From Streptomyces sp. SLBN-31 (lineage in GTDB: Bacteria; Actinomycetota; Actinomycetes; Streptomycetales; Streptomycetaceae): a DNA stretch of 64,000 nt. Below, in pieces: positions 9,489 to 44,207 of the stretch (position 1 is the first letter of the stretch; every line of letters begins with the position of its first letter). The position numbers and the translations under genes were made by a program. Location of the stretch: contig NZ_VFNC01000001.1 of the NCBI RefSeq assembly GCF_006715395.1, positions 3,534,001 to 3,598,000 of the forward strand, in the 5' to 3' direction. The notes beneath the pieces were generated by a model. The model worked only from the letters and a program-made list of their open reading frames with translations. It ran no database searches and was not told where the DNA came from.

Positions 9489-9500
9489 AGTGCCGCACAT

Positions 9501-13006: not shown

Positions 13007-13086
13007 ACGCTGAACGGTGTACCCCGCCCCCGTCGCCTGGTCTGCCAGAAGCCTGAGATCAGGCGATCAGGACGAAGGGGGCGGCG

Positions 13087-13506: not shown

Positions 13507-13664
13507 TGCGAGCGGGTGGGCCGCCCCTCCGGGGTCGGCCGCATGAGGTTCACCGTTCGGGACAGTTGTATTACCTCAACCCGGTTCGAACTCCGCTGGG
13601 TTGGGGCTGCGGTCGGCACTGGCCCAGTCGGCGGGGCTGGTGCCGACCGCGCGATGGGACGGGG

Positions 13665-14285: not shown

Positions 14286-14352
14286 GTGTCCTCCTTCTCG
14301 GCAGTGGACGCGGCGGATGCGGCGGATACCCCGGGCGATCCATGGCAAAGCC

Positions 14353-15174
14353 TTAGCGGCGGTCGGCAGTTGGCAGGCAATGGCGGGCAGTGGAGGGGTG
14401 GGTGTGAGCGGTTTGCAGGAGTTCGGCGGCGCCGCGTACGGCTGCTGTGTGCGGGGCCGGGACCACGCGCGGCGGCTCGTGCAGCCGTCCGGTGAGGTGA
14501 TGGGTGATCTCGGGACGCAGGGCGCCTCCACCCGCCAGGAGGATCCGGCGGTGGAGAGCGTCGACGGTGAGCGAGGTGCGGTCCTGGTGGAGCATCGAGG
14601 TGAGCATTGAGGCCACGGCCTCGGCGATCCGCTCGGGTGTGGCGGATGCGCCGAGGTCCTCGGTGCCCAGGGCGGTACGGCGTGCGTCGGCGACGGCCCC
14701 GTCGTCCAGCAGGACGACTTCGGTGAGGTGGGCGCCGATGTCCACCACCATCAGCGGACGGGACAGGTCCGCCCCGGCCGCCACGGCGATGGCCCGGGCG
14801 CTGGGCACGGTCAGAACGCACCGCGGCCGCAGTACGTCGACCGCCGTACGAGCCTCCGTGCGGTAGGCGACGCCGTCCAGGACGGGAGCGGTGAGGACGA
14901 CCATGGGGCGGGTGGCGCGGGGCAGGCGGTCGGCGAGGAGGCGCTGCAGCATGCGGGCACATCCCGGGGTGTCGACGATGGTGCCGCGCTGGACGGGATA
15001 CAGCGCGCCCGTCCCGGCGAAGGTCACGGTGGGCACGTCGACCACGACACCTCTGCCCGCCAGCCAGGCCCGGGTGCGGGCGCTGCCCATGTCCAGGGCG
15101 ATGCCGCAGCAGCCCCGGCATACCGGCCAGGGCCGGTGCGGGGCGGCGGTGTGCGGGTGGGACGCGCCGGTCAT
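14353..15174 (-). CDS. Short MreB-like actin-fold ATPase
   Basis: Protein of 273 residues with three actin-superfamily nucleotide motifs: phosphate-1 (IALDMGSARTRAW), phosphate-2 (MVVDIGAHLTEVVLLDDG) and adenosine (ILLAGGGAL). True MreB is about 340 residues. Here the subdomains that carry polymer contacts are reduced and a Cys-rich VCRGCCG precedes the first motif, so it may not form filaments. ATG 15174 overlaps the TraR/DksA stop by 4 bases and follows AAGGAGGCG. Such divergent MreB/Mbl paralogues are found in Streptomyces dormancy-type clusters. The role is unknown. Confidence 0.82.
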   Translation of the reverse strand: MTGASHPHTAAPHRPWPVCRGCCGIALDMGSARTRAWLAGRGVVVDVPTVTFAGTGALYPVQRGTIVDTPGCARMLQRLLADRLPRATRPMVVLTAPVLDGVAYRTEARTAVDVLRPRCVLTVPSARAIAVAAGADLSRPLMVVDIGAHLTEVVLLDDGAVADARRTALGTEDLGASATPERIAEAVASMLTSMLHQDRTSLTVDALHRRILLAGGGALRPEITHHLTGRLHEPPRVVPAPHTAAVRGAAELLQTAHTHPSTARHCLPTADRR

Positions 15175-15542
15175 GGGATCGCCTCCTTGACCTGCTGGCA
15201 GCGGGCGCAGTAACGGGCCTGCGGCACGATCATCAGCCGCTCCCGTTCGATGGCGCGGCGGCACAGGCGACAGCGGCCGTACGTGCCGTCATCCATACGG
15301 GCAAGGGCTGATTCGACGTCGGCGAGGACCATGCGGGCGGAGGCGGCGAGCTTGATGTGCACCTCTATCTGGGAGGCGGCCCGCTGTTGGAGCCGGTCCT
15401 CGGTGCGGGAGGTGACCGGTCCGGCGAGCCGGCGCAGCTGCTCCTGTCGGAACAGGCGCTGCTCGTGCAGGTTCTCGCGCAGGGCGGCATGGTCGTCGGC
15501 CGACAGCGGTGCCGTGCTCTGGCTGATGGTCTGGTAATTCAC
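15171..15542 (-). CDS. TraR/DksA zinc-finger protein (1)
   Basis: Protein of 123 residues (start GTG 15542, or GTG 15545, both after a GAGGGG site). A helical hairpin (residues 15-85) resembles the DksA coiled coil. It ends in a C4 zinc ribbon CRLC-x17-CARC (Cys91, Cys94, Cys112, Cys115) within the family segment GTYGRCRLC. DksA/TraR proteins insert in the RNA polymerase secondary channel. In actinobacteria the family also includes small proteins of unknown target. It overlaps the actin-like gene, so their synthesis is coupled. Confidence 0.87.
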   Translation of the reverse strand: MNYQTISQSTAPLSADDHAALRENLHEQRLFRQEQLRRLAGPVTSRTEDRLQQRAASQIEVHIKLAASARMVLADVESALARMDDGTYGRCRLCRRAIERERLMIVPQARYCARCQQVKEAIP

Positions 15543-15591
15543 CACTTCACCCCTCGGAGGGCATGGCGCAGAGGATGGAGACGGACGGTGG

Positions 15592-15903
15592 TCAGGTGGC
15601 GCGCCGCTGGCAGGCGACGCAGAGGCGGGTGTACGGGAGGATCTCCAGCCGTTCCGCGGGGATGGGCCTGGCGCAGTCCAGGCAGGTTCCGTAGGTGCCG
15701 TTCTCGATACGGGTGAAGGCCTTGTCGATCTCTTTGAGGGTTCGCTCCATGGCGGTCTTCTGCTCGGACAGCAGGTAGTCCTCCGAGGTGTACCCGGTCT
15801 CGTCGAGGGCCTGCAGTTGGGCCAGCCGGGTACTGCGGGCGTGTTCCAGGCGCCGGCGTGCCTCGAACAGATGGGGTTCGGTCCTGGGGACATCGAGGGC
15901 CAT
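15592..15903 (-). CDS. TraR/DksA zinc-finger protein (2)
   Basis: Protein of 103 residues, ATG 15903 after GAAAGGGA. It has the same layout as its neighbour: helical arm (ARRRLEHARSTRLAQLQAL), an acidic turn and helix, then a C4 ribbon in GTYGTCLDCARPIP with CVAC near the end. The pair probably arose by duplication and then diverged, since they share the zinc site but little of the arms. It is the first gene of the minus-strand operon 15903 to 13665 and is divergent from the histidine kinase, 362 bp away. Probable RNA-polymerase modulator; target unknown. Confidence 0.87.
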   Translation of the reverse strand: MALDVPRTEPHLFEARRRLEHARSTRLAQLQALDETGYTSEDYLLSEQKTAMERTLKEIDKAFTRIENGTYGTCLDCARPIPAERLEILPYTRLCVACQRRAT

Positions 15904-16265
15904 CGTCGATCCCTTTCGTGAGGACTCGTCCACTGCGCGGAAGCGCACCGCACGGGGTGGGTGCCGTACCGCGAGTCGGTGGGTGGTGCTGCGGGGCCGG
16001 GCCGAACCTGTCTGCCGGCCCGGTGCCCTCCAGCCTGTCCGGGCCGACGACGGATACCTATCGGGCGCGGGCCCCATTTACGGGGGGCCACGGGATCCAT
16101 GCGGCGACGTCATGGGTGTCGCGCGAGCCGGGAAATGGGGTCCGGGGCCCATCGACTGGGCACTCGGGACGGGGCAGGCTGGCCTTGGGACCACTTCAAG
16201 CACCTGGCACGGTGGACGATGGCGGTCACAGTGGAGATGACGCCAGAAGGGGAGGCGCAGGGCCG
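15904..16265. promoter_or_regulatory. Divergent promoter region of TraR operon and two-component system
   Basis: 362 bp without a gene. It contains CCCCATTT (16072-16079) and AAATGGGG (16133-16140) as a spaced inverted repeat, and GGGTCCGGGGCCCA (16138-16151), which fits the DosR-like consensus with one mismatch, 115 bp before the kinase start. Confidence 0.5.
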
Positions 16266-17228
16266 GTGTCGTTGTTCTGGCGGATCTTCGCCCTGAACGC
16301 CGTGGTGCTGGGAACGGCCACGGCGCTGCTGCTGTGGGCGCCGGTGACCGTTTCGGTGCCGGTTGTGCTCACCGAGGCGATCATCCTGGTCGGTGGCCTG
16401 GCCGTGATGCTGGTCGCCAATGCCGCCCTGCTGCGGCTCGGTCTGGCCCCGCTGGACCGGCTGAGGAAGCTGATGACCACCGTGGACCTGCTGCGCCCCG
16501 GCCAGCGCCTGCCCGCCTCCGGCGGCGGCGAGGTCGCCGAGGTGATCCGTACGTTCAACGCCATGCTGGAGCGGCTGGAGCAGGAGCGGGCCACCAGCAG
16601 TGCCCGGGCGCTGCTGGCCCAGGAGGCCGAACGCGGCCGTATCGCGCAGGAGTTGCACGACGAGGTCGGCCAGAGCATGACCGCGATCCTGCTGGGACTC
16701 AAACGCGCCGCGGACGGTGCTCCGGCACCGCTGCGCGAGGACATCCACGAGGTGCAGGAGATCACCCGAGGAAGCCTGGACGAGATCCGCCGCCTGGTGC
16801 GCCGGCTGCGACCCGGTGCGCTGGACGACCTGGGTCTGGTCAGCGCACTGACCTCGCTCACCGAGGACTTCGCCACCCATACGGGGCTGCGGGTCACCCG
16901 CCGTTTCGATGCCGATCTGCCGGTTCTGGCCTCGGAGACGGAACTGGTGCTCTACCGCGTGGCCCAGGAGTCCTTGACCAACGTCGCCCGGCACGCGGAC
17001 GCCCAACAGGTCACCGTCGCCCTGCGCCACGCCGATGACGGCGTGGTGCTGACGGTCACCGACGACGGCTCCGGCATCAAGGCGCTCCGCGAAGGCGCCG
17101 GCATTCGCGGCATGCGCGAGCGGGCGCTGCTCATCGGGGGCGGCCTTGAGATCACCCCGGCCCCCCGCAGCGGCACCCGCGTCCAGCTCACCGCGCCCGA
17201 TGCCAGGAAGCAGCCCGACGATGACTGA
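16266..17228 (+). CDS. NarL-type sensor histidine kinase
   Basis: Membrane kinase of 320 residues from GTG 16266 (AGGGGAGG upstream). Two helices (about residues 5-27 and 33-58) with almost no extracytoplasmic loop precede a HAMP domain (59-112). A HisKA_3 dimerisation segment follows, with phospho-acceptor His131 in RIAQELHDEVGQS, and a HATPase with LTVTDDGSGI and GIRGMRERA. The lack of an external sensor suggests membrane or intracellular sensing, as in LiaS-like kinases. Its stop overlaps the response-regulator start by 8 bases, so the two form one unit. It may control the surrounding island. Confidence 0.93.
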   Translation: MSLFWRIFALNAVVLGTATALLLWAPVTVSVPVVLTEAIILVGGLAVMLVANAALLRLGLAPLDRLRKLMTTVDLLRPGQRLPASGGGEVAEVIRTFNAMLERLEQERATSSARALLAQEAERGRIAQELHDEVGQSMTAILLGLKRAADGAPAPLREDIHEVQEITRGSLDEIRRLVRRLRPGALDDLGLVSALTSLTEDFATHTGLRVTRRFDADLPVLASETELVLYRVAQESLTNVARHADAQQVTVALRHADDGVVLTVTDDGSGIKALREGAGIRGMRERALLIGGGLEITPAPRSGTRVQLTAPDARKQPDDD

Positions 17229-17892
17229 ACCGACCTCGCCCGCCGGGACGATCCGCATCCTGCTCGCCGACGATCACGCACTGGTCCGCCGAGGGGTGAG
17301 ACTCATCCTCGATCAGGAACCGGACCTCGAAGTGGTCGCGGAGGCCGGTGACGGCGCCGAGGCCATCGACATGGCCCGCACCCACGACATCGACCTGGCG
17401 GTGCTCGACATCGCCATGCCCCGCATGACCGGCCTGCAGGCCGCCCGCGAACTGGCCGCCCTCAAGCCGGACCTGCGGATTCTGATGCTCACCATGCACG
17501 ACAACGAGCAGTACTTCTTCCAGGCCCTGAAGGCCGGGGCCAGTGGGTATGTGCTGAAGTCCGTCGCCGACCGGGACCTGGTCGCCGCCTGCCGGGCCGC
17601 GATGAGAGACGAGCCCTTCCTGTATCCCGGCGCGGTCACCGCGCTGATCCGCAACTACCTCGACCGCGCGCGCCAGGGCGAGGAAACCCCCGACCGGGTC
17701 CTGACTCCGAGGGAGGAAGAGGTCCTCAAGCTGGTGGCCGAGGGGCATTCCTCCAAGGAGATCGCCGACCTGCTGTTCATCAGCATCAAGACAGTGCAGC
17801 GCCACCGCGCCAACCTGCTGCAGAAACTCGGCCTGCGCGACCGTCTCGAACTCACCCGGTACGCCATCCGCGTCGGCCTCATCGAACCCTGA
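17221..17892 (+). CDS. NarL/LuxR-family response regulator
   Basis: Regulator of 223 residues starting at ATG 17221 inside the end of the kinase gene. The receiver domain shows the acidic pair DDH at 17-19, phospho-acceptor Asp63 in VLDIAMP, Thr in LMLTMHD and Lys in YVLKS. The C-terminal LuxR HTH runs from LTPREEEVLKLVAEGHSSKEIADLL to TVQRHRANLLQKLGL. It forms a cognate pair with the kinase. DosR/OsdR also belong to this family, so this protein is one candidate for binding the GGGNCNNNNGNCCC boxes nearby, which is inference only. Confidence 0.94.
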   Translation: MTEPTSPAGTIRILLADDHALVRRGVRLILDQEPDLEVVAEAGDGAEAIDMARTHDIDLAVLDIAMPRMTGLQAARELAALKPDLRILMLTMHDNEQYFFQALKAGASGYVLKSVADRDLVAACRAAMRDEPFLYPGAVTALIRNYLDRARQGEETPDRVLTPREEEVLKLVAEGHSSKEIADLLFISIKTVQRHRANLLQKLGLRDRLELTRYAIRVGLIEP

Positions 17893-17897
17893 CCCCG

Positions 17898-17970
17898 GCC
17901 CGCACCACGCATCATCAGGAAGCCCGCACCACCTGTCACGGGGAAACCGACACCACACATCACCAGCGAA
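17898..17970 (+). repeat. Three imperfect 24-25-bp tandem repeats
   Basis: Units at 17898-17921, 17922-17945 and 17946-17970 share the core CCGCACCAC (GACACCACA in the third) and end in GGAA/CGAA. They fill the whole gap between the response-regulator stop and the next ribosome site. Confidence 0.6.
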
Positions 17971-17977
17971 GGGGACG

Positions 17978-18403
17978 GTGCATGCACCACGCCGCGAGCA
18001 CCGCCCCCACCCCCGCAGCCCCCGGCCCCCGGCCGCCGCTGTGCCGGCGGCCATCGTGCTGGCCCTGCTGGCGCTGGTGGCCACACTCGGCATCGCCGGC
18101 CCGGCAAACGCGGCGAGGGGCGGTACAGCAGTCGCGGCGGCAGCGGTCGACCACCACCGGGATACCGGAACGCGTGCCGACGACGGACGGGACACCGCCG
18201 GCGTACTCCGGGTGGCGACCCGTTCTGAGACGCACCGCGAGCACCCCGCTCCGCGCTGCGATCTCACCGCCTGCGCCCAGGGCACGGGCACCACGCCACC
18301 CGCCCGCGCGCAGCCCCCGGCGTCCGGTGGGCACCTTCCCTCGTCCCGGCCCCACGCACACGATGACCGTGGGCGAGGACCCCCTGCGCCCTCCGGCAAC
18401 TGA
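17978..18403 (+). CDS. Small secreted His-rich protein upstream of SecDF
   Basis: Protein of 141 residues from GTG 17978, which has GAAGGGGAC just upstream. It carries a clear signal peptide: hydrophobic AAIVLALLALVATLGIAG followed by a PANA-type signal peptidase I site near residue 46. The mature part is low-complexity, rich in His, Arg, Pro and Thr, with two or three Cys and an end APSGN. I know no function for it. Its position immediately before the SecDF fusion (78 bp) suggests co-expression. Codon position bias supports coding in this frame rather than the overlapping frame at 17982. Confidence 0.6.
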   Translation: MHAPRREHRPHPRSPRPPAAAVPAAIVLALLALVATLGIAGPANAARGGTAVAAAAVDHHRDTGTRADDGRDTAGVLRVATRSETHREHPAPRCDLTACAQGTGTTPPARAQPPASGGHLPSSRPHAHDDRGRGPPAPSGN

Positions 18404-18481
18404 CATCCCCTTTTCCTGCCCTCACCTCGACAGCACCCGACCGCGCGCCCGCGTGGCCCGGTGCACCTGCCGGAGGCTCCG

Positions 18482-20737
18482 TTGCGCCGTTCCCTGCGCG
18501 TGAAGGCACTGCTCTCCCTCGCCGTGATCGCCGTATCCCTGTACATCGCCGTCACTGTGCCGGTCCGCCTCGGACTCGACCTGCGTGGCGGCACCCAGAT
18601 CGTGCTGCAGACCCGCTCCACCGCCACCATCGACGCCGACCGCGAGACCACCGACCGCACCCTGGAGGTGCTGCGCGGCCGCATCGACGCGCTCGGCGTC
18701 GCCGAACCCACCCTCGTCCGCTCCGGCGACAACCGGATCATCGCGGAACTGCCCGGCGTACAGGACCCGAAGAAGGCCGCCGATGTCCTGGGCCGTACCG
18801 CGCAGCTCACCTTCCACCCCGTGCTCGGCGCAGCCGACCGCGCCGACGACACCTCCCCGCCCCTTCCCAAGCGGCCGAACGAGCGTGTCCTGCCCGACGA
18901 GACCGGTACATCACTGCGCCTCGGGGCGGCGGCCCTGACCGGCGAACACGTCAAGGAGGCCGCCGCCCGCTTCGACCAGCAGAGCGGCGCCGGGTGGCAC
19001 GTCACCATCGACTTCGATGGCCGCGGCCGCGACGGCTGGGCCCGCCTGACCGGCGAGGCCGCGTGCCACCCGGCGGGTGAGCCGGCGCGGCGCGTCGCCA
19101 TCGTCCTCGACGACAGGGTCATCTCCTCACCCCAGGTGGACCCCGCCGTCCCGTGCGGCACCGGCATCCGCGACGGCGCCACGCAGATCACGGGCTCCTT
19201 CAACCCCGAGGAAGCCCGTGAGCTCTCCCTGCTCATCAACGGCGGGGCGCTGCCCGTGCCGGTCGAGACCGTCGAGCAGCGCACCGTTGGACCGACCCTG
19301 GGCGCGCAGGCCATCACCGCCAGCGCCTGGGCTGCGGCCATCGGCACGGCGCTGACCTCGCTGTTCATCATCGGCGTCTACCGGCTCATGGGTGTACTGG
19401 CGGCCGTCGCCCTGGCCTGCTACGGGCTCATCTCCTACGCCGCCCTGGCCGCCCTCGGCGCCACCCTGACCCTGCCGGGACTGGCCGGTTTCGTCCTGGC
19501 GATCGGCATGGCCGTGGACGCCAACGTGCTGGTCTTCGAACGCGCCCGTGAGGAGTACGCGTCCCGCCGCCGCGCAAGTACCCGCTCGGCGCTGGCGGCC
19601 GGATTCCGCAACGCCTTCGGTGCCGTCGCCGACTCCAACATCACCACGCTGATCGCGGCCACTCTGCTGTTCTTCCTCGCGTCCGGGCCCGTACGGGGCT
19701 TCGGTGTCACCCTCGGCATCGGCGTGCTCGCCTCCATGTTCAGCGCCCTGGTGATCACACGCGTGCTCGCCGAGTACGCCGTCGCCCGCCCCGTCCTGCG
19801 CCGCCGTCCCGGTCTCACCGGTATCGCCAATACGGGCGCCGTCCGCGACCGCCTCACCCGCCGCAACCCCCACCCGATGCGTCGTCCCCGCCGCTGGCTG
19901 GCCACCTCGGCCGCAGCCCTCGTCCTGGCCGCCGCGGGCATCGCGGTCCGTGGCGTCGACCTCGGTGTGGAGTTCACCGGTGGCCGTCTCATCGAGTACG
20001 CCACCAGCGCTCCCGTCGATCCCGACCGGGCCAGAACGGCGCTCGCGGACGCCGGATTCCCCCGTGCGATCGTGCACTCCTCCGGTGACACCAACCTGAC
20101 GGTGCGCACGGATCGGTTGACCAACGCCGAGGAGACCGAGGTGACCGGCACCGTGCGCGGCCTCGCCGACGGGGCGGACAAGGTCCGTGACGAACTGATC
20201 GGCCCCAGCCTCGGCGACGAGCTGCGCCGGGGCGCCCTGATCGCGCTGGCCGTGGCCCTCGCCACGCAGCTCGTCTACCTCGCGGCGCGCTTCCGTTGGC
20301 TGTTCGGCACCGCCGCGGTCGCGGCCCTCGTCCACGACGCGGTGATCCTCGTAGGCGTCTTCGCCTGGCTGGGCAAGCCCCTCGACGGGGTGTTCCTTGC
20401 CGCCCTGCTCACTGTCATCGGCTACTCGGTCAACGACTCCGTCGTCCTCTTCGACCGTGTCAGGGAACTGGCCCGAAGATCCCCCAAGGCGCCGCTGTCC
20501 GGCATCGCCAACCAGGCGATCCTGCAGACGCTGCCCCGCACGGTGAACACCGGCATGGGCGCCGCGTTCATCCTCACCGCTCTCGCCGTACTCGGCGGGT
20601 CCTCGCTCACCGACTTCGCCCTGGCCCTGCTGATCGGCCTGGCCGTCGGCACGTACTCCTCCGTCTTCACCGCCGCTCCGCTGGCCGTGGCACTTCACCG
20701 GCGCGGCGACCCGACCCCCATCTCAAGCAGGCCCTGA
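18482..20737 (+). CDS. secDF: SecD-SecF fusion protein translocase subunit
   Basis: Fusion of 751 residues. TTG 18482 is preferred because GGAGG lies 5 nt upstream; GTG 18461 would add 7 residues. The SecD half has a TM near the start, GLDLRGGTQIVLQ and a TM bundle with AIGMAVDANVLVFER. The SecF half has a TM, GVDLGVEFTGGRL and TVIGYSVNDSVVLFDRVRE. These Asp residues in TM segments are the proton-path residues of SecDF. SecDF uses proton motive force to help exported proteins leave the Sec channel. It is shorter than usual SecD+SecF pairs, with a reduced first periplasmic domain, so it may be an accessory paralogue beside the chromosomal secD and secF. Confidence 0.9.
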   Translation: MRRSLRVKALLSLAVIAVSLYIAVTVPVRLGLDLRGGTQIVLQTRSTATIDADRETTDRTLEVLRGRIDALGVAEPTLVRSGDNRIIAELPGVQDPKKAADVLGRTAQLTFHPVLGAADRADDTSPPLPKRPNERVLPDETGTSLRLGAAALTGEHVKEAAARFDQQSGAGWHVTIDFDGRGRDGWARLTGEAACHPAGEPARRVAIVLDDRVISSPQVDPAVPCGTGIRDGATQITGSFNPEEARELSLLINGGALPVPVETVEQRTVGPTLGAQAITASAWAAAIGTALTSLFIIGVYRLMGVLAAVALACYGLISYAALAALGATLTLPGLAGFVLAIGMAVDANVLVFERAREEYASRRRASTRSALAAGFRNAFGAVADSNITTLIAATLLFFLASGPVRGFGVTLGIGVLASMFSALVITRVLAEYAVARPVLRRRPGLTGIANTGAVRDRLTRRNPHPMRRPRRWLATSAAALVLAAAGIAVRGVDLGVEFTGGRLIEYATSAPVDPDRARTALADAGFPRAIVHSSGDTNLTVRTDRLTNAEETEVTGTVRGLADGADKVRDELIGPSLGDELRRGALIALAVALATQLVYLAARFRWLFGTAAVAALVHDAVILVGVFAWLGKPLDGVFLAALLTVIGYSVNDSVVLFDRVRELARRSPKAPLSGIANQAILQTLPRTVNTGMGAAFILTALAVLGGSSLTDFALALLIGLAVGTYSSVFTAAPLAVALHRRGDPTPISSRP

Positions 20738-35700: not shown

Positions 35701-36582
35701 ATGCGCGTGTTTCTCACCGGCGGCACCGGTCTGATCGGTTCCGCTGTCGTCGCCGAACTGCTCGACAACGGCCACACGGTCCTCGCCCTCGCTCGCTCCG
35801 AAGCATCCGCGCAGGCCGTGGAGGCGGCCGGTGCCGAGCCCCTTCGGGGTGCCCTGGCGGATCTGGACACTCTCCGCGCCGGTGCCGCGCGGGCCGACGG
35901 GGTGATCCATCTCGCGTTCAACCATGACTTCAGCAGCTCCGACGTCATCGCGAAGTCGGTCGCGGAGGAGAGTGCGGCCCTCGCGGCCATCGGCGAGGAA
36001 CTCGTCGGCAGTGACCGCCCGTTCGTCACCTGTTCGGGTACGCCCTACGTGCCCGGCCGCGCCTCCACCGAGGCCGACCCGCTCATGACCGAGGGGCCGG
36101 TCGGTGGTCGGGGCCGTACGGTCACGGCGGTGCTGAGCCTGTCCGAGCGCGGGGTCCGCAGCAGTGCCGTACGTTTGCCGCGCACGGTCCACGACCAGGG
36201 GTCCGGTGGATTCGCCGGGCTGTTGACCGACATCGCCCGCCGGACGGGCGTGTCCGGTTACCCGGGTGACGGCGCACAGCGCTGGCCGGCCGTGCACGCG
36301 CTCGACGCGGCCGTTCTCTTCCGGCTCGCCCTGGAACAGGCGGAAGCGGGTACCTCCTGGCATGCCGTGGCCGATGAGGGGGACAAGGTGCGCGACATCG
36401 CCACGGTCATCGGTCGGCGGCTGGGCCTGCCGGTGGAGTCGGTACCGGCGGAGACCTTCGGCCCCCTCGGCCAGATCTTCGCGAACGACCAGCCCTCGTC
36501 CAGTGCGTACACCCGGCAGACGCTCGGCTGGGAGCCCAAGCACCCCGGCCTGCTGGAGGACCTGGGGAACATCCAGCCCTGA
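35701..36582 (+). CDS. NAD-dependent epimerase/dehydratase-type SDR
   Basis: Extended or atypical SDR of 293 residues, ATG 35701 with GGGGAG upstream. The Rossmann motif MRVFLTGGTGLIGSAVV has the GxxGxxG spacing of extended SDRs. HALDAAVLFRLALE and YTRQTLGWEPKHPGLLEDL near the end are shared with the common actinobacterial group annotated as NAD-dependent epimerase/dehydratase regulated by TetR. It is under the duplicated operator of the divergent TetR gene. Substrate unknown. Confidence 0.9.
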   Translation: MRVFLTGGTGLIGSAVVAELLDNGHTVLALARSEASAQAVEAAGAEPLRGALADLDTLRAGAARADGVIHLAFNHDFSSSDVIAKSVAEESAALAAIGEELVGSDRPFVTCSGTPYVPGRASTEADPLMTEGPVGGRGRTVTAVLSLSERGVRSSAVRLPRTVHDQGSGGFAGLLTDIARRTGVSGYPGDGAQRWPAVHALDAAVLFRLALEQAEAGTSWHAVADEGDKVRDIATVIGRRLGLPVESVPAETFGPLGQIFANDQPSSSAYTRQTLGWEPKHPGLLEDLGNIQP

Positions 36583-36665
36583 CCGGCGACCGGGACGGTT
36601 CGGGCAGGCCGCGCCGAAGCGGTCCCGACCTTCCGCCCCGTGCATGAATCTCATAGCTGAGTGAC

Positions 36666-36692
36666 GATGCCGAGCAGCCGCTGCTCGGCATC
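36666..36692 (+). terminator. Hairpin terminator
   Basis: 12-bp perfect stem GATGCCGAGCAG / CTGCTCGGCATC with a 3-nt loop CCG, 84 bp after the epimerase-like stop. Confidence 0.75.
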
Positions 36693-36791
36693 TCGCGTAG
36701 GGCATGCCGGCTGAGCGAGTTGCCGCTCGCCTTTTCTTTTCTTCCGCATAACCGGGCGCACAACCGGTCGCCGCCAGTACGCTAAACGGGC

Positions 36792-36816
36792 ATTCGCCAG
36801 GAATTTCCTAGCGAAT
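36792..36816. promoter_or_regulatory. 25-bp near-perfect palindrome upstream of the kinase operon
   Basis: Outer arms ATTCGC / GCGAAT and inner arms AGGAA / TTCCT around T 36804, with one mismatched pair (36798 C, 36810 A). It lies 72 bp before the first start codon and immediately upstream of TTGACC. It is the best operator candidate for the six-gene cassette. Confidence 0.6.
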
Positions 36817-36887
36817 CCGCACCTGTTGACCCATGTCCGCACGGAAAAGATCAGGTGTGACCGCTCTCGGGGGGAATCGAACGCGCG

Positions 36888-37889
36888 GTGGAACAAAATC
36901 GCATGCCTATGCGAATAGGCCCTTATCAGGTTTTGGATTTTCTGGGGCAGGGCGGCATGGGGGCCGTCTATCTCACCCGTAGCCGGGGCGGACGGTCGCT
37001 GGCCGTCAAGGTCATTCGCGCCGACCTGGCCGCGAACCGGGACTTCCGTCGGCGTTTCGCGCGGGAGGTGGCCGCGGCGAGGAAGGTGAGCGGGGCGTAC
37101 ACGGCGCCCGTGGTGGACGCCGACACGGAGTGCGTCGAACCGTGGCTGGCCACGATGTTCGTACCGGGTCGCTCCCTGTGGGAGACGATCCGGGCCGAGG
37201 GTGCCCTCGATGGCGAGCGGGCACGGGAACTCGGAGCCGGTCTTGCGGAGGCGCTGATCGACATTCACGCTGCCGGGATCATCCACCGCGATCTCAAGCC
37301 GCACAACGTCCTGATGGGAGCGGACGGCCCACGGGTGATCGACTTCGGTATCGCACACGTGGCGGATCTTCCACCGCTGACCGATCCCGGCGCATTGCTG
37401 GGCACTCCGCAATTCATGTCGCCGGAACAGATCAAGGGAAACAGACTGACGTTCGCCAGTGACGTGTTCTCCTTCGGTCTGGTTCTCGCTTATACGGCGA
37501 TCGGAGGCAGCCCATTCGGCCCGGGAAGCAATGCACAACTGCTCCTGCGCACCCTGCACGAGGATCCCGACCTCACCGCGCTTCCCGGCGGCCTGCGCCA
37601 GTTGGTCGCCGCCTGCCTTGCCCGGCGACCCGAGCAACGGCCGTCGCCGAGCGACCTGCTCGACACACTCGCGGCCGTGACCGCCCCTGACCCACAGATG
37701 GTGCGGCCCGCCCCTCTGCCGCCGGTGCCGACCGTGTGGGTGCCGGAAGCAGGGCCGGGCGGTACGGACTTCGCGCACAGCGCTCACGCCGCGCCGGGCA
37801 GTACGGACTTCGCCCGCAACGCGCACGCCGTGCTGGACGACGGACTGACCGACGCCCTGGTGATCGAGGCGGCCCGGCATGACGGCTGA
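36888..37889 (+). CDS. Ser/Thr protein kinase (soluble, Hanks type)
   Basis: Kinase of 333 residues with all Hanks motifs: P-loop GQGGMGAVYL (20-29), Lys41 in AVKVI, catalytic loop HRDLKPHN with Asp135, DFG at 152-154 and MSPEQ. It lacks the transmembrane segment of PknB-like receptor kinases and ends in a Pro-rich tail with an approximate repeat (TDFAHSAHA, TDFARNAHA). GTG 36888 is the longest reasonable start; ATG 36903 or 36909 are alternatives because no strong ribosome site is seen. It overlaps the next gene by 11 bases and opens a six-gene phosphorylation cassette. Its substrate may be among the products downstream. Confidence 0.9.
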   Translation: MEQNRMPMRIGPYQVLDFLGQGGMGAVYLTRSRGGRSLAVKVIRADLAANRDFRRRFAREVAAARKVSGAYTAPVVDADTECVEPWLATMFVPGRSLWETIRAEGALDGERARELGAGLAEALIDIHAAGIIHRDLKPHNVLMGADGPRVIDFGIAHVADLPPLTDPGALLGTPQFMSPEQIKGNRLTFASDVFSFGLVLAYTAIGGSPFGPGSNAQLLLRTLHEDPDLTALPGGLRQLVAACLARRPEQRPSPSDLLDTLAAVTAPDPQMVRPAPLPPVPTVWVPEAGPGGTDFAHSAHAAPGSTDFARNAHAVLDDGLTDALVIEAARHDG

Positions 37890-38337
37890 CCACGAAGCGC
37901 ACCCGGCGCACGTCCTTCTGCACACGGATTGGAGCCGACTGGTGAAGCAGTGGGCCACCACGGCAGGCCTGCCGGTCCATGACGAAGACACCCATGTCTC
38001 ACTCGATGTGACGCGCCGTCAGGCAGCGGCCGACGACCTGCACGTCCACCTCACGACCTCCAGCCGCTTCCTGGTCGCCTTCATCACCAACGGCCGGACG
38101 CTCGGGCCGGGCGAACTGGCCCGGGCGGCCGCGGCCGCCAACGCCTGGAACATCGAACAGCTGATGCCGACCCTGTCGGTCTGGAACGTGCGCGGCAAGC
38201 AGCCCCACCTGGCCGGCGTCTGCACCCTGCCGCTGCTGTGCCGGATGAGCCAAAACGACTTCGACGGCACCGCATCCGGCTGGGTCGACCAGGCCACGAC
38301 CATGTTCGCCCGCTGCCGCGAGGTCTTCCGACTGTGA
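37879..38337 (+). CDS. YbjN-like (T3SS-chaperone fold) protein
   Basis: Protein of 152 residues of the YbjN-domain type, recognised by the VSLDVTRRQAAADDLHVHL strand pair and by RAAAAANAWNIEQLMPTLSVW, the segment in which YbjN proteins have AANxWN. The fold resembles type III secretion chaperones and usually mediates protein contacts. It begins inside the kinase gene and ends inside the next one (GTGA at 38334-38337), so all three are coupled. An adaptor or substrate role for the kinase is plausible but not shown. Confidence 0.78.
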   Translation: MTADHEAHPAHVLLHTDWSRLVKQWATTAGLPVHDEDTHVSLDVTRRQAAADDLHVHLTTSSRFLVAFITNGRTLGPGELARAAAAANAWNIEQLMPTLSVWNVRGKQPHLAGVCTLPLLCRMSQNDFDGTASGWVDQATTMFARCREVFRL

Positions 38338-39593
38338 TCCACGAACCGACCCGACCACGCCGTGCGCACCGGCCCGAGACAGGTCGCCGGGCCGCCCTCG
38401 CCCGGACCCTGGTGGGCATCGCCCTGCTGGGCTCGGTGCTGACGTTGGTAGCCGCCTTGCCGGCCGGCGCCGAACGACCCGAGCCGCCCCCTCCCGCCAC
38501 GTCGGTCCCGGCGACACAGGACGACACCACGCACTTCACGGCAGGGCACTGCCCCACGACCGACTTCGGCGCTGCCGTGCGCTGTTGGGGAGATGACGCG
38601 TCCGGCGACCACATGGCCGTCGTCACCGTCACGGCGCCCCAGGAGTTCCACCAGGACGCCGGTTCGCGGTCCATGGCCGAGGCCGTGCGGCGCCTGCGCG
38701 GCAAGCTGACCGTGATCGTCCCGGACGGAGTGCGCACCGGCTCCGGAGGCACCCTCCTGCTCGCCCTCGCCGCCTACCGGGTCGTCGGACCGCACACCCT
38801 GATCAGTCCGCTGACGGAACGCGACGGACAACAGCTGGCGGACCAGGGCGGTTGTCCGCAGAACGGCTTCTGCGATGTCGTACGGACACACCAGCGCAGC
38901 GGCGACGAGCTCGTGCGGCGCGGGCTCGCCCAGGACACCCGTACGTCGTTGTTCACCGCCGGTCCCGGGATGGCGGGCGCGACGGCGGACGCCGGTGGCG
39001 GCACCGAGTCCGGGGTATCCGGTGACGTCGCCTTCCTGCTCGTCGTCCTGGCCGTTCTGCTGTGCCTGGTGACCGCGCTGGGCCTGCTGGTCGGCCGTAC
39101 CCGCAGGCCCCGCCGACCGTCCGCGCCCGCAATGGCCGCCGCCGGATCCGCCGCGGCGGCCACGGGCTCCGCCGACGGGTCCGTCGGAGGTGCGCCGAGG
39201 CGGTCCGGGGACAGTCCGGACCGCCGGGACCGGGCCGACCACCGCGGGCACCGCGCCGGGTCACGACCGTCGACGGTCCCGGTCGCCGCCATGACCGCGG
39301 ATCCGGGCCGGCAGCACGGTGAGGAGAGCACCGTCCCGCCGGCGCGGGTCCGCGAGCCCGCGGCCCGGCAGCGGTCGACGGGCGGCCGTGGCCGCGGGGA
39401 GGGTCTGCTGTCGGCCACCGTGCGTACCGTGCTCGGGCCGCAGGGCTATGTGGCCATCAACGGCCTGCTGTACCGGGCGCGTTGGGGCGGAGCCGGAGAG
39501 CCACCGGAACCAGGCCGGCCGGTGGAGGTCCGCCGGGAGAGCACCGGCGAGCTGACGGTGCTCGGCGACGACGAGATCTCACGGTTCGGCTGA
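38334..39593 (+). CDS. NfeD-like membrane protein with degenerate serine-protease-like domain
   Basis: Protein of 419 residues from GTG 38334. Residues 22-46 are a signal peptide or anchor helix (LVGIALLGSVLTLVAALPAGA). The external region 60-225 has paired Cys (73/84, 174/180). It contains GVRTGSGGTLLLALAAYRVV with ISPLT, which resembles the ClpP/NfeD protease region; Ser137 is a possible nucleophile. A TM helix at 232-253 is followed by a low-complexity Ala/Arg/Pro linker. A C-terminal OB-like domain (GYVAINGLLYRARWGG, PGRPVEV) matches NfeD. The protease-TM-OB order is that of long NfeD proteins. Activity is unproven. Confidence 0.6.
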   Translation: MIHEPTRPRRAHRPETGRRAALARTLVGIALLGSVLTLVAALPAGAERPEPPPPATSVPATQDDTTHFTAGHCPTTDFGAAVRCWGDDASGDHMAVVTVTAPQEFHQDAGSRSMAEAVRRLRGKLTVIVPDGVRTGSGGTLLLALAAYRVVGPHTLISPLTERDGQQLADQGGCPQNGFCDVVRTHQRSGDELVRRGLAQDTRTSLFTAGPGMAGATADAGGGTESGVSGDVAFLLVVLAVLLCLVTALGLLVGRTRRPRRPSAPAMAAAGSAAAATGSADGSVGGAPRRSGDSPDRRDRADHRGHRAGSRPSTVPVAAMTADPGRQHGEESTVPPARVREPAARQRSTGGRGRGEGLLSATVRTVLGPQGYVAINGLLYRARWGGAGEPPEPGRPVEVRRESTGELTVLGDDEISRFG

Positions 39594-39653
39594 CCCGGAC
39601 TCGGCACGACAGCAACTGCGACAACTGCGACAGCGATCCACAGGGGTATGCCC

Positions 39654-40415
39654 ATGCACGACGACGCCTCGCGAAGCGTTCCTCTCTACTACAACGACAT
39701 CCTGCCCGAGGGCAATGCCCAGAGGCAGCCTCTGGTGCTGTGCCTGGACACCTCCTCGTCCATGGCGGACGAACCCATCACGATGCTCAACCGGGCGTTG
39801 CAGGACTGGGTTCGGGAACTCCGGGCGGACATCAACCTCACCAACAGCGTTGAGGTCGCCCTCGTCACGTTCGGCGGCCGGCGCGTGTGCACCTGGAAGG
39901 GCACCACGATGCTGGCCGACACCGCGGACCCGGACGCCTTCGTCGCGGCGCACGCGTTCGGCGCACCGCATCTGCAGGCCAGCGGCGTGACGTTGATGAC
40001 GGATGCGCTGCGCACCGCCGTTCACCTGGTCGCGGCCCGCAAGGCGGCGCTGCGGGCCGCGGGCCACCTCTACTACCGTCCGCAGATCTGCCTGATCACC
40101 GACGGACAGCCCACCGACACCGAGGGCCGCCTGAGCGACGACTGGCGGCAGATCGTGCCGATGCTCACCGACCAGCAGGAGAAGAAGAAGTTCCGGCTGT
40201 TCGCCATCGGCGTCGGAGGCATTTCCCCGCACGGCGAGCAGGTGTTGCGTGCCATCGCGCCCAGGTACTACGCCCGTCTGCAGGGATTCCCTTTCCGGCA
40301 GGTGCTCCAGATGCTGTCCGCCAGCGCCGGCACCCAGGACAAGGGGGACGGTGAGGAGGTCTACCAGAAGATCTTCGCCCGGTTCACCACACAACGGTCG
40401 GCGTGGAACACATGA
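39654..40415 (+). CDS. vWA-domain protein, TerY-like
   Basis: Protein of 253 residues from ATG 39654, 7 nt after AGGGG (ATG 39648 is too close to it). The single von Willebrand A domain shows the MIDAS motif LCLDTSSSM, the conserved Thr in SGVTLMTDAL and the Asp of ITDGQPTDTE, so a metal-dependent adhesion site is intact. It has no signal peptide and is cytoplasmic, as TerY proteins are. It precedes PP2C and kinase genes (stop and next start overlap as ATGA at 40412). That order is the TerY-P triad described for tellurite-resistance-related stress systems. Confidence 0.87.
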   Translation: MHDDASRSVPLYYNDILPEGNAQRQPLVLCLDTSSSMADEPITMLNRALQDWVRELRADINLTNSVEVALVTFGGRRVCTWKGTTMLADTADPDAFVAAHAFGAPHLQASGVTLMTDALRTAVHLVAARKAALRAAGHLYYRPQICLITDGQPTDTEGRLSDDWRQIVPMLTDQQEKKKFRLFAIGVGGISPHGEQVLRAIAPRYYARLQGFPFRQVLQMLSASAGTQDKGDGEEVYQKIFARFTTQRSAWNT

Positions 40416-41212
40416 GCGCGGCGAACATGAGCACCAGGACGACACACTGGCGGCTGCACGGAACCAGCGTGACCGGTCACCGGCACCGCCGCGACAACGC
40501 GGCCTGCCAGGACGCCTTCCAGTACCGCGGCACCGGCCCGGACACCTTCCTGCTCGCCGTCGCCGACGGAGCGGGCAGCCGCCCACACTCCCGCGAGGGC
40601 GCGCAGACGGCCGTGGAACTCGCGGACCTGCACTTCCTGCCCTCCTCCGGGCTGCCCGACGACCCGCGGGACGTGGAGGAATTCCTGCGGTCCCGGTTCA
40701 CCGTGCTGCGCGCCGAGTTCCTGCGCCGGACCCGACCGCGTCCGGAGGACTTCGCCACCACCTTGACCGTCGTCATCCACACGCCGCGCTGGCTCGGCTA
40801 TCTGAGCGTGGGCGACGGCTTCGCCGTACTGCGCGCCGGAACCCGCGAGGGGGAGCCGCTGTTCCACCTGCTGCCCCAGCCCGCACCGGTGAGCGAGTAC
40901 AGCAACGAGGCGTTCTTCGTCACCTCGGACGATGTGTCGCGGCGGCTGGAGACCGCCTGCGTCCTGGACGAGGAGGTGACGGGAATCCTGCTGTCGACCG
41001 ACGGACTGACCCAGGCCGCCGTGGAGTTCCCGGGCAACCACCGCAAGCGCGCCAAGCACGACTTCGTGTCCCGGGTGCTCGGCGCGATGGAGCGAACGGA
41101 CATCGGTGCCGAGCAGGAGGAGGCTGAACTGACCAGGCTGCTGGAGTCCCGACGGCTGGCCGCCGACAACGCCGACGACAAGACCCTGGTCAGGGCGGTC
41201 CGAGGCCGATGA
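40412..41212 (+). CDS. PP2C-family protein phosphatase (TerY-P triad)
   Basis: Phosphatase of 266 residues from ATG 40412 (GTG 40403 is an alternative). It shows RHRRDNAACQDAF (metal-site segment), AVADGAGSRPHSREGA (the VADGMGG motif with metal Asp), LGYLSVGDGFAVL (GDS motif with Ser to Gly), ILLSTDGL and NADDKTLV (the DN metal motif). Mn/Mg-dependent dephosphorylation of Ser/Thr is expected. Its stop overlaps the following kinase start by 4 bases. The phosphatase and kinase probably act on the same targets, perhaps the vWA protein or its partners. Confidence 0.9.
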   Translation: MSAANMSTRTTHWRLHGTSVTGHRHRRDNAACQDAFQYRGTGPDTFLLAVADGAGSRPHSREGAQTAVELADLHFLPSSGLPDDPRDVEEFLRSRFTVLRAEFLRRTRPRPEDFATTLTVVIHTPRWLGYLSVGDGFAVLRAGTREGEPLFHLLPQPAPVSEYSNEAFFVTSDDVSRRLETACVLDEEVTGILLSTDGLTQAAVEFPGNHRKRAKHDFVSRVLGAMERTDIGAEQEEAELTRLLESRRLAADNADDKTLVRAVRGR

Positions 41213-42429
41213 GCGAGGTCTTCGTCGACGGTGAGCGCACCCCGCTGGAGCAGGAGCCACTGGCCTCGGGCGGACAGGCGACGGTCTACGCGATCAGCGG
41301 ACAGCCGCAGCGCGTGGTGAAGATCTACCACGACCCTCCCGGCGAGGATCAGCGCCGACGGCTGAGCAGCATGATCCGGATGCGCCCACTGGCCGACCGC
41401 GCCACCGACGGCAGCCAGGCCCCGGAACTCGCCTGGCCCACCGCCCTGGCCAAGGGCACCGACGGCACGACCGTCGGCTACGTCATGCGGCGGTTCGCCC
41501 AGCCGGACCATGTGCCACTGGCGGCTCTGTTCGACCAGCGGACCCGGGCCTCCTTGTTCCGGCCCGAGCTGAACTGGGGTTTCCTGCTGGGAGTCTCCTG
41601 GAATCTGGCGTACTTGACGGTCCGTCTGCACAGCGAGGACATCGTGGTGGGCGACTTCTCCGCCCGCAACATCGTGGTGGACCAGGGCGGATTCGTGACC
41701 TTCCTGGACTGTGACTCGATGTCCTTCGACGATCCGGGCGGGGGCCCGCGCTTCCGCTCCCAGATGCACACGCCCGCCTACAGCGCGCCCGAGCGCCAGG
41801 AGGGTGCGCCGGCCTCCCAGGCGAGCGACAGTTTCGCCCTGGCGATCTGTGTCTTCCAGCTGCTGACCGGCGGCACCCATCCGTTCGGCGGCTACCCCAA
41901 GGATCTGGGCTCGGTCAGCATCTCCATCGGCAGCCGCATCGCCGAGGGCACCTCGTACGTGACCCAGCCGCAGCGGGTCATCATGCCCCGGGGGACGGTC
42001 ACACCGGAGATCCTGCCGCCCGCGCTCCGCGCCCTGGCCGAGCGCACCTTCGCAAGCTCGCCCTCCGATCCCACGCTCCGACCCACACCCGCCGAGTGGT
42101 TCGAGGCACTGGAGACGACACGGAACGAGACGGCGTCCTGCGCCGTCCGCACCCAGCACACCTACGCCGCCCACCTGGGCGCCTGCCCTTGGTGCGCTCG
42201 CGTGGCCCGCCAGGAAGCCGACCTGTTCGAGTCGGTGCCGGTCGCCTCGGTGCCCGCACGGACGCCGGCCACGAGTCCGAAGACGACCGTCACCGCGGAC
42301 AGTGCGGCGGGCGCGGTTCCGCTCCCGCAGCCCCCCGATCCGCCACAGCCGAGCTCGTGGGGCGCCGTACCCGTGGCCGTGCTGATCGCCCTCTTCGTGA
42401 TCGCCGTCCTCCTCCTCGGTTTGCACTGA
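41209..42429 (+). CDS. Atypical Ser/Thr kinase with zinc-ribbon-like segment and TM tail
   Basis: Protein of 406 residues, kinase component of the TerY-P-like triad. P-loop LASGGQATVYAI, Lys38 (VVKIY), catalytic loop VVGDFSARNIVVD (Asp149, Asn154; HRD replaced by VGD), LDCDS in place of DFG (Asp167) and YSAPE. The essential Lys/Asp/Asn/Asp are kept, so activity is possible. After the kinase domain, CAVRTQHTYAAHLGACPWC resembles a zinc-binding finger. A Pro-rich linker and a C-terminal membrane helix (AVPVAVLIALFVIAVLLLGL) tether it to the membrane. It is the last gene of the cassette. Confidence 0.87.
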   Translation: MSEVFVDGERTPLEQEPLASGGQATVYAISGQPQRVVKIYHDPPGEDQRRRLSSMIRMRPLADRATDGSQAPELAWPTALAKGTDGTTVGYVMRRFAQPDHVPLAALFDQRTRASLFRPELNWGFLLGVSWNLAYLTVRLHSEDIVVGDFSARNIVVDQGGFVTFLDCDSMSFDDPGGGPRFRSQMHTPAYSAPERQEGAPASQASDSFALAICVFQLLTGGTHPFGGYPKDLGSVSISIGSRIAEGTSYVTQPQRVIMPRGTVTPEILPPALRALAERTFASSPSDPTLRPTPAEWFEALETTRNETASCAVRTQHTYAAHLGACPWCARVARQEADLFESVPVASVPARTPATSPKTTVTADSAAGAVPLPQPPDPPQPSSWGAVPVAVLIALFVIAVLLLGLH

Positions 42430-42490
42430 GGGGGCGGACGCCGGACCGGCCGGACGGCTGACCGAAATTCTCATTTTCAGTGGGCTACGT

Positions 42491-42496
42491 CACAAT
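42491..42496 (+). promoter_or_regulatory. -10 box (CACAAT) of leaderless NAT gene
   Basis: CACAAT is followed by AGGTTC and ATG 42503. Transcription would start at or next to the ATG. Confidence 0.45.
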
Positions 42497-42502
42497 AGGT
42501 TC

Positions 42503-43390
42503 ATGTTCGAGGCGACAGCTCGAATGAACCCGGACATCCAGCGAGCGTATCTGGCCCGCCTCGGCGTCGAGGCGGCGCCACCATCGGTACCTGCGCTGCG
42601 TCTGTTGGTACGGCGCCATGCCGAGCGGGTGCCGTACGAGACTCTGTGGATCACGGCAGGCGAAGCCTGGAACATCGATCCGTACGAGGCGGCAGCGCGC
42701 ATCGCCCTCCACGGTCGTGGCGGCTACTGCTATCACATGAACGGAGCGCTGGGCTTGCTGCTCGGTTCGCTCGGATACGCGGTACGGGGCCATGTCGGGG
42801 GAGTGCACGGCCCGGACGCTCCTCAGGCCTCCGTGATGGGCAACCACCTGGTTCTGACGGTGGAGGGGTTGCCGAGCGAGACGAATCCCGGTGGTGTCTG
42901 GTACGTCGACAACGGCTTGGGAGATGCTCTGCACGATCCGCTGCCGTTGGTCGCCGGAAGGCACGATCAGCCGCCGTTCGTGCTCGGTCTGGAGCAGGTC
43001 GCTGAGCGGTCGGAGTGGCATCTGACCCATGACCCGGGTGGCGGATTCACCGGAATGACCTGGACCACGGCTGAGGCACGTCTGGCCGACTTCGAGGCGC
43101 AGCATCAGTTCTTGTCGACCTCGCCGCTGTCCCCGTTCGTCCAGGTGCCGATGGCCGAACGGCGCGACGCGACCGGGGCTGACGTGATCCGCGGGCTGGT
43201 GCTGAGCCGGATCGGCGACGGCGCACGCACCGATGCGCCCGTCACCAGCCGCGCGGAATGGTTCGATCTGCTCGCCGATCTGTTCGGCCTGCGCTTGTAC
43301 GCCCTGCCGGCTGAGACGCGCGAGCAACTCTGGACGAACGTTCTCGCGGCGCACCGTCGCTGGCAGGAGGCGCAGAGCTCGCAGAGCTGA
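42503..43390 (+). CDS. nat: Arylamine N-acetyltransferase
   Basis: Enzyme of 295 residues that transfers acetyl from acetyl-CoA to arylamines, hydrazines or related substrates. The Cys-His-Asp triad is visible as Cys76 in GRGGYCYHMN, His115 in MGNHLVL and Asp136 in WYVDNGLGD. Length and motif spacing fit the usual 270-290-residue NATs. The gene starts leaderless after CACAAT. The last two residues and the stop codon lie inside a 27-bp tandem repeat that continues 76 bp beyond the gene, so the C-terminus (WQEAQSSQS) may be variable between strains. Confidence 0.92.
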   Translation: MFEATARMNPDIQRAYLARLGVEAAPPSVPALRLLVRRHAERVPYETLWITAGEAWNIDPYEAAARIALHGRGGYCYHMNGALGLLLGSLGYAVRGHVGGVHGPDAPQASVMGNHLVLTVEGLPSETNPGGVWYVDNGLGDALHDPLPLVAGRHDQPPFVLGLEQVAERSEWHLTHDPGGGFTGMTWTTAEARLADFEAQHQFLSTSPLSPFVQVPMAERRDATGADVIRGLVLSRIGDGARTDAPVTSRAEWFDLLADLFGLRLYALPAETREQLWTNVLAAHRRWQEAQSSQS

Positions 43391-43488: not shown

Positions 43489-43716
43489 TCATTCGCTTTC
43501 GCATTGAGCGGCCTCCGGCTCCCAGCGCAGGAGGTCCCCCGGCTGGCATTCGAGCACTTCGCACAGTGCGGCGAGCGTGGCGAAGCGCACGGCCTTGGCG
43601 CGGCCGTTCTTGAGTACCGCCAGGTTGGCGGGGGTGATTCCCACGCGGTTGGCGAGCTCGCCCACGGACATCTTCCGCTTGGCCAGCATGACGTCGATGT
43701 CGACGGCGATCGGCAT
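43489..43716 (-). CDS. Small XRE-family regulator (YozG-like)
   Basis: Protein of 75 residues: a single HTH_26-type XRE domain (KRKMSVGELANRVGITPANLA, then VLKNGRAKAVRFATLAALCE) with the common ending LECQPGDLLRWEP. Start ATG 43716 overlaps the stop of the upstream membrane gene by one base, so they are one operon. Single-domain YozG-like regulators are almost always paired with a DUF2975 membrane protein, as here. It probably binds the CTATCGA palindrome upstream of the pair and is autoregulated. Confidence 0.92.
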   Translation of the reverse strand: MPIAVDIDVMLAKRKMSVGELANRVGITPANLAVLKNGRAKAVRFATLAALCEVLECQPGDLLRWEPEAAQCESE

Positions 43717-44207
43717 CAGATGACCTCGTCCAGCTCGGCCTGCAGCTGCGACGCCTCGAGGTCGCGGGCTACGGCCTGGGCGAGCAGCATCCGCAGCACG
43801 AGCACGATGAGCGCGACCCCCAGAATGGCCACGCCGACGCCGGCCATGATGACGGTGACGCCCGGGTCGTCCCGCTGACCCGGTGCATTGACGATCGTGA
43901 CCGCGAACCACAGGCACGCGGCCGTCACGATCGCGCCGATCACACGATCCACGTACCGGAAGGCATCGTGGGAGAAGACGGTGCCGCGGCGCACCATCGT
44001 CACCAGCCGCCATACGCTGCTCAGGGCGACTTGGGCCGCCACCATGCCCAGGGCGGTGATCACGCGCAGTGCGGTCAGTGGCAGCGTCCCGTCTTCCTTG
44101 TCGTTGCCGCCGACCAGCATCCACACCATCCCGGCCTGCACGAACACCGTGCCGGCGAGAACCACCACGAGCACGGCGCGCAATGCACGCACTGCCAGCT
44201 TTCCCAT
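43716..44207 (-). CDS. DUF2975 membrane protein
   Basis: Protein of 163 residues with four membrane helices (approximately 7-30, 44-66, 84-105, 117-141), matching DUF2975. The FSHDAFRYVDRVIGA segment between the second and third helices is characteristic of the family. The last 20 residues are acidic and cytoplasmic. Function is not known. The gene is always found with a small XRE regulator and may sense a membrane state and convey it to that regulator, which is inference. ATG 44207 is preceded by GGAGGGTGGGTC. Confidence 0.88.
   Translation of the reverse strand: MGKLAVRALRAVLVVVLAGTVFVQAGMVWMLVGGNDKEDGTLPLTALRVITALGMVAAQVALSSVWRLVTMVRRGTVFSHDAFRYVDRVIGAIVTAACLWFAVTIVNAPGQRDDPGVTVIMAGVGVAILGVALIVLVLRMLLAQAVARDLEASQLQAELDEVI

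Follow-up and report, generated by a model that had tools for sequence, protein, structure and literature searches.

A conserved Streptomyces operon with a TerY-P-type core and an NfeD-like partner: a predicted Ser/Thr phosphorylation switch

TerY-P systems consist of a TerY-like vWA protein, a PP2C phosphatase and a Ser/Thr kinase with a zinc ribbon, and TerY-P-like modules are described as stand-alone antiphage systems (PMC11090510, citing Gao et al. 2020); for TerY-P, activity against T7-like phages is reported (PMC7699616). The Escherichia coli yegL-pphC-yegI locus encodes a membrane Ser/Thr kinase, YegI, which phosphorylates itself and is dephosphorylated by PphC (PMC13232886, 2026). Genes for a kinase with a zinc ribbon or a transmembrane (TM) segment, a PP2C phosphatase and a vWA protein also occur in actinobacterial GAP1-N2 GTPase-centric conflict systems, as their third theme (Kaur et al. 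2020, PMC7159879). The kinase-kinase-phosphatase (KKP) modules, made of PfkA, PfkB and PfpC, have an antiphage use as well; their kinases carry CSD or FHA domains and they are found mostly in Gram-negative prophages (PMC11341870). Here we analyze a six-gene operon of Streptomyces sp. SLBN-31 whose last three genes form such a triad. It lies in a stretch of 64,000 nucleotides, referred to below as the window, which spans positions 3534001-3598000 of contig NZ_VFNC01000001.1 in a genome of 9.47 Mb and 3 contigs.

An earlier note on the window had proposed a six-gene phosphorylation cassette at 36888..42429. The cassette is real: by the open reading frames (ORFs) of the window, it holds six intact genes on the plus strand, each ending with a stop codon.

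36888..37889, plus strand: gene 1 (kinase 1), soluble Hanks-type Ser/Thr kinase, 333 aa (Pfam Pkinase, 130 bits)
37879..38337, plus strand: gene 2, YbjN-like protein, 152 aa (predicted YbjN / type III secretion chaperone fold)
38334..39593, plus strand: gene 3, NfeD/1510-like membrane protein, 419 aa (predicted structure; Pfam NfeD match below cut-off)
39594..39653, no strand: gap of 60 bases between genes 3 and 4, with no match to a sigma-70-type promoter or a terminator
39654..40415 (alternative ATG start at 39648), plus strand: gene 4, TerY/YegL-like vWA protein (Pfam VWA, complete metal ion-dependent adhesion site, MIDAS)
40412..41212, plus strand: gene 5, PP2C-type phosphatase, 266 aa (PF13672, 122.5 bits)
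41209..42429, plus strand: gene 6 (kinase 2), atypical YegI-like Ser/Thr kinase, 406 aa (conserved kinase residues, C-H-C-C zinc site, final TM helix)

The gap of 60 bases is the only one in the operon, as the note had it, and the remaining genes overlap by 11, 4, 4 and 4 bases, one 4-base overlap more than had been counted. Separate promoters between 39593 and 39654, with independent regulation of the two halves, had been named as one observation that would speak against a single unit; scanning 36580-42620, this gap included, gave no sigma-70-type promoter, by a scan that is weak for Streptomyces. Pfam cut-offs are passed by genes 1, 4 and 5, while genes 3 and 6 match their families below the cut-off and gene 2 matches none. 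The G+C content at third codon positions is 0.784 in gene 1, compared with 0.862-0.910 in genes 2-6.

The operon is conserved and patchily distributed; to a TerY-P core it adds an NfeD-like partner that is nearly constant, and two more genes. With a threshold of E 0.001, the vWA search hit 21 out of 121 Streptomyces genomes, 14 of which, the window genome included, have a close match (at least 47% identity). The order kinase, YbjN, NfeD-like, vWA, PP2C, kinase, for which the note had recommended a search, is kept in 12 of these 14, again counting the window genome (genes in the relatives were called with a simple ORF caller and their starts are approximate), and the OB domain of gene 3 was confirmed by profile in each of the 12 loci. 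The order thus recurs in 11 other Streptomyces genomes, which excludes that it is peculiar to this strain. Regarding gene 2, a YbjN-like gene was found in exactly the 14 genomes that carry a close vWA, the other 107 all lacking it (Fisher p 1.3e-18, relatedness uncorrected). Kinase 2, searched at E 1e-25 with at most 15 candidates scored per genome, was found in the same 14 genomes and in G088 and G091, both of which have a distant triad. The two genomes of the 14 that depart from the order (loci L032 and L033) have four of the genes side by side, the YbjN gene around 7 kb further downstream and no kinase 1. This second layout, also present in L048, a further genome from a class-level search, reads NfeD-like, vWA, PP2C, kinase, dynamin, C39-like peptidase, small gene(s), dynamin, HSP70 and YbjN (8238-19340 in the oriented L032); the small genes after the C39-like peptidase are one or two, with a GrpE match in L048. 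At the level of the class, the vWA search at E 1e-15 retrieved 10 out of 394 genomes, with at most six candidates scored per genome, and a search with a Spirillospora YbjN homologue 3 out of 394, all of them Streptomyces. All named homologues of gene 3 are from Streptomyces too, and a related-locus search with the vWA protein gave only two distant loci, from Propionibacteriaceae.

By their sequences, genes 4-6 have the features of a TerY-P triad, as had been claimed: a vWA protein with a full MIDAS, a PP2C phosphatase and a kinase with a putative zinc site, adjacent and in the same order. Gene 4 matches Pfam VWA with 40 bits, and its MIDAS residues D34, S36, S38, T115 and D152 (numbered from 39648) are invariant in 28 of 28 aligned rows, as are D34, D52, D135, D197, D255 and D256 of gene 5, which matches PP2C_2 (PF13672) with 122.5 bits. 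Gene 6 gives 28.8 bits with Pfam Pkinase against a cut-off of 31.7. It had been called an atypical kinase, which holds. It lacks the Lys of the HRDxKxxN motif; the catalytic Lys, Asp, Asn and Asp are nonetheless kept, with K38, D149 and D167 invariant in 25 of 25 rows and N154 present in at least 90% of them. Its C-terminal C-H-C-C (CPWC) putative zinc site is found in 24 of the 25 rows, being missing in L016, and is followed by a hydrophobic segment (380-406) that would form a TM helix. The same order is seen in yegL, pphC and yegI of E. coli (L056), and the members correspond one to one by BLASTP: gene 4 is, in the aligned part, 36% identical to YegL, gene 5 28% to PphC over 177 aa and gene 6 30% to YegI over 334 columns.

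The labels YbjN-like and NfeD-like, also proposed in the note, rest on predicted structures because Pfam gives nothing for gene 2 and a match below cut-off for gene 3 (NfeD, 17.5 bits, cut-off 29.1); the structures agree with both labels. The topology described for gene 3 is likewise predicted, with a hydrophobic N-terminal helix (16-40), a ClpP/crotonase-type domain (63-222) expected to be exported, a TM helix at about 231-256, a low-confidence linker and an OB domain (358-409), C-terminal to the TM helix. Its model has a mean predicted local distance difference test score (pLDDT) of 62.5, higher in both domains, and matches each half of the Pyrococcus 1510 protein. The lysine of the Ser-Lys dyad is missing: the sole lysine in 63-222 is K124, N-terminal to the candidate serine S137, a position probably equivalent to the nucleophile judging from the helix start of the model and occupied by S, D, Q or P across 13 aligned proteins. 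Because the dyad lysine is absent, a sensing role is more probable for the exported domain than a proteolytic one.

We made a profile of the OB domain from the C-termini of 14 gene 3 proteins, chosen by a sequence motif, and ran it on 1455 triad-strand ORFs from 28 loci. It gave 21 matches past the inclusion threshold, 14 of them from the training set and seven untrained, each immediately preceding a vWA gene. The next match, in L036 (E 0.043), is also directly upstream of the vWA gene, and the following one (E 0.045) is not. Counting this weak match, an OB gene directly precedes the vWA gene in 22 of the 28 loci. Since L049-L052 are closely related, the seven untrained matches are not seven independent cases, which the binomial value of 4.9e-11 leaves out of account. 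The NfeD-like gene often accompanies the triad as such and is no peculiarity of the six-gene operon. In L049-L052, from another actinobacterial family, one more vWA-like gene and one more kinase gene follow the NfeD-vWA-PP2C-kinase set; in L036 and L037, both with a distant triad, a tiny or short OB ORF overlaps the start of the vWA gene.

Gene 1 was rightly described as a soluble Hanks kinase: its kinase domain spans about residues 13-260, is followed by a Pro-rich tail, and no hydrophobic stretch was found in the whole protein. The best NCBIfam match is a partial one to the AfsK kinase domain, with 273 bits, far below the cut-off of 1300. The VAVK, HRDxKxxN, DFG and PE residues are kept in 12 of 12 aligned rows, and so is a GL(T/S) motif at the very end of the tail. 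For gene 2, no Pfam match appears even at E 1 and the PF10722 cut-off is not reached; the homologue in L032 gives 18.9 bits with this family for a cut-off of 22. The predicted model of gene 2 (pLDDT 74) resembles YbjN (6vu7), AmyR and DR_1245, so that the protein is YbjN-like by its predicted fold and not a YbjN family member by Pfam.

The six-gene order occupies five or more kinds of chromosomal site. In seven relatives (L023-L029) it adjoins a PEPCK gene, in L030 and L031 it lies beside prephenate dehydrogenase and PucR-type genes, and in L034 and L035 beside conservon genes, where two conservon sets (roadblock, DUF742, GTPase, NIT-histidine kinase) stand directly upstream on the same strand. 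In the window genome the PEPCK gene is 3.1 Mb away, and its flanks join without the six-gene unit or TelA-type genes. Just downstream of the unit, six of the seven PEPCK-site relatives (L023-L026, L028, L029) have a convergent TelA gene and an SBP-vWA fusion gene. The patchy distribution and the several sites therefore indicate gain, loss or transfer. A prophage or plasmid cassette was rejected, with no close copy in the phage and plasmid collections: the former gave 2 vWA matches, and in the latter a vWA match was present in 1491 records and a kinase 2 match in 70, all below 60% identity. Integrases and flanking repeats were not searched for on either count. In the window, the next gene downstream of gene 6 encodes an arylamine N-acetyltransferase, and just past it, at 43489-44174 on the minus strand, are genes for a small Cro/C1-type regulator and a DUF2975 membrane protein. 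None of the neighbouring genes scanned with Pfam has a Ter domain, in line with the note, which had seen no Ter genes nearby.

Relatives of the core in other loci have different company. Caspase and CHAT genes lie beside it in L032, and the same families in L033, where the neighbours were named via clustering with L032; in both, the CHAT-TPR and caspase genes are divergent. L036 has CHAT, RES and Macro genes upstream of its distant triad, L037 has ClpA-type AAA, HSP70 and DO-GTPase2 genes downstream of its own, with a Fer4_12 gene also beside, and L054 an Mrr endonuclease gene upstream of its core relative. HSP70 genes are found near the core in L032, L037 and L048. With caspase, CHAT, RES, Mrr and dynamin genes as neighbours of core relatives, a putative conflict role of the core is favoured.

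Overall, we give about even chances to the view that the operon, conserved and of TerY-P type, works as one membrane-gated Ser/Thr phosphorylation switch, predicted for stress or phage defence. Its observed basis is the conserved gene order, the domain content, the conserved catalytic residues and the fact that the YbjN gene and the triad occur together. In such a switch, the NfeD-like protein would span the membrane, with its exported pseudo-protease-like domain meeting an envelope signal and its cytoplasmic OB domain handing this signal to the vWA protein, which would scaffold the YegI-like membrane kinase and the PP2C phosphatase. At rest, the phosphatase would hold the pathway off; once the signal tipped the balance, both kinases, the YegI-like one and the soluble AfsK-like one, would be switched on. 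Its peptide-binding chaperone fold may let the YbjN-like protein dock the soluble kinase through the conserved motif at the end of the kinase tail. The output would be the phosphorylation of host targets, slowing or stopping growth. The four-gene core of the related layout has dynamin and HSP70 genes next to it; two of the three loci with this layout add caspase and CHAT protease genes, whose products would be the effectors there. A more specific proposal, which we regard as rather doubtful, is that actinobacterial TerY-P is a four-part system, with the NfeD-like OB domain gating the triad and a sensor that can be exchanged, the pseudo-protease ectodomain; the six-gene form would then be a self-contained immune kinase cascade whose toxic output is the soluble AfsK-like kinase, armed via the YbjN-like chaperone and restrained by PP2C, in the manner of KKP in Gram-negatives.

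Several results weigh against the membrane-gated defence switch. No effector was recognised in the six-gene operon, and the ten flanking window genes, which resemble ordinary metabolism and regulators, gave no PADLOC match at E 0.001, so an effector gene in the flanks was rejected as well. Besides, relaxing the threshold as far as E 10 gave no PADLOC match for the vWA and PP2C genes, and the window kinases match many generic PADLOC kinase models (PD-T4-6, MADS6), for which reason we do not regard the operon as a PADLOC-listed defence gene. The caspase/CHAT context is limited to two loci, in the layout without kinase 1. The gene 3 profile retrieved no NfeD entry from the PDB sequences, and six of the 28 loci (L016, L017, L038, L039, L054 and L055) had no OB gene upstream. 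Furthermore, gene 3 is short in L030, L034 and L035, keeping the TM helix and the OB domain without the exported domain; an external signal is therefore not required in every version.

One could argue that the operon serves housekeeping signalling of envelope or development instead of defence, with the AfsK-like kinase directed at targets in growth or secondary metabolism and the state of the membrane reported by the NfeD-like protein. AfsK being the nearest named family of gene 1, the ordinary neighbours with no effector gene among them and the variant beside the conservon genes of L034 and L035 (Robl, DUF742, GTPase and NIT-histidine kinase) all fit this explanation. A presence in only 14 of 121 Streptomyces genomes, at several sites, is unlike a core developmental function, however, and relatives of the core sit with death-type effectors; we hold housekeeping to be a possible account, though an unlikely one. 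The Ter name would suggest a switch for toxic-anion or metal stress, which seems improbable to us. The TelA and SBP-vWA genes downstream of the unit at most PEPCK sites (6/7) would agree with it, as would the putative zinc site of kinase 2, the MIDAS of the vWA protein and the frequency of TelA, found in 10 of 14 genomes with the unit versus 36 of 107 without (p 0.0086, relatedness uncorrected). Yet the window genome has no TelA match, L027 carries the unit at the PEPCK site without the TelA and SBP-vWA genes, and the neighbours scanned are free of Ter domains. Tellurite or TelA as a fixed function was rejected: TelA adjoins the unit in six of seven PEPCK-site relatives but is absent from the window genome.

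It is very improbable, finally, that kinase-YbjN-NfeD and the triad are unrelated half-operons that became neighbours by accident. Such a division would explain the 60-base gap between them and the loci L032, L033 and L048, which lack kinase 1 and have the YbjN gene about 7 kb downstream. Against it, 12 of 14 genomes have the whole order, spread over at least five kinds of site, the NfeD gene stays with the triad where kinase 1 and YbjN are elsewhere or absent, and the YbjN gene never occurs without a close triad among the 121 genomes.

TerY-P-like triads extend from E. coli to Streptomyces, and the OB-domain membrane partner gives them a concrete candidate for signal input, while the YbjN gene, alongside a close triad in 14 of 14 genomes, is a candidate adaptor. 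As some loci join the core just to a second kinase and others place it next to caspase, CHAT, dynamin and HSP70 genes, the six-gene operon may be regarded as a small and testable form, in a multicellular bacterium, of a larger conflict system.

By comparing the locus with the described systems, we find that it shares with TerY-P the three families, their order, the full MIDAS and the C-terminal CPWC zinc site on the kinase, but it has no restriction, CoCoNuT or Ter genes beside it, adds three genes upstream and carries a TM helix after the zinc site. The likeness to E. coli yegL-pphC(yegK)-yegI covers member-for-member homology, order, the zinc motif and the pairing of a membrane kinase with a phosphatase; in contrast, genes for NfeD-like and YbjN-like proteins and a second kinase are absent from the E. 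coli stretch examined, where the HSP70 gene yegD adjoins yegI, and the window neighbours scanned include no HSP70 gene. With the GAP1-N2 systems it has in common adjacent actinobacterial genes for a kinase with a zinc ribbon or TM segment, a PP2C phosphatase and a standalone vWA protein; the window neighbours scanned with Pfam include no GAP1 or DO-GTPase gene, although L037 does carry DO-GTPase2. KKP also joins two Ser/Thr kinases to one PP2C and would be a natural model for an output through kinase toxicity, but it has no vWA, NfeD or YbjN component, and genes 1 and 6 of the window have no Pfam match to CSD or FHA. Gene 3 differs from the NfeD and Pyrococcus 1510 stomatin-partner proteases in that it lacks the dyad lysine, its serine position is not conserved in homologues and no stomatin gene is among the window neighbours scanned. 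A term search of PMC8195603 gave no mention of PP2C, TerY, YbjN or NfeD. The note had suggested that the cassette was not yet described as a unit; this stands for the six-gene form, of which we found no description in the literature searched (which did not cover most subscription journals), and not for the core, known from PMC7159879 and from yegL-pphC-yegI. The triad core is thus already known, the six-gene form appears new, and what is new about the triad itself is the NfeD-like OB-domain protein as its near-constant partner, encoded directly upstream of the vWA gene.

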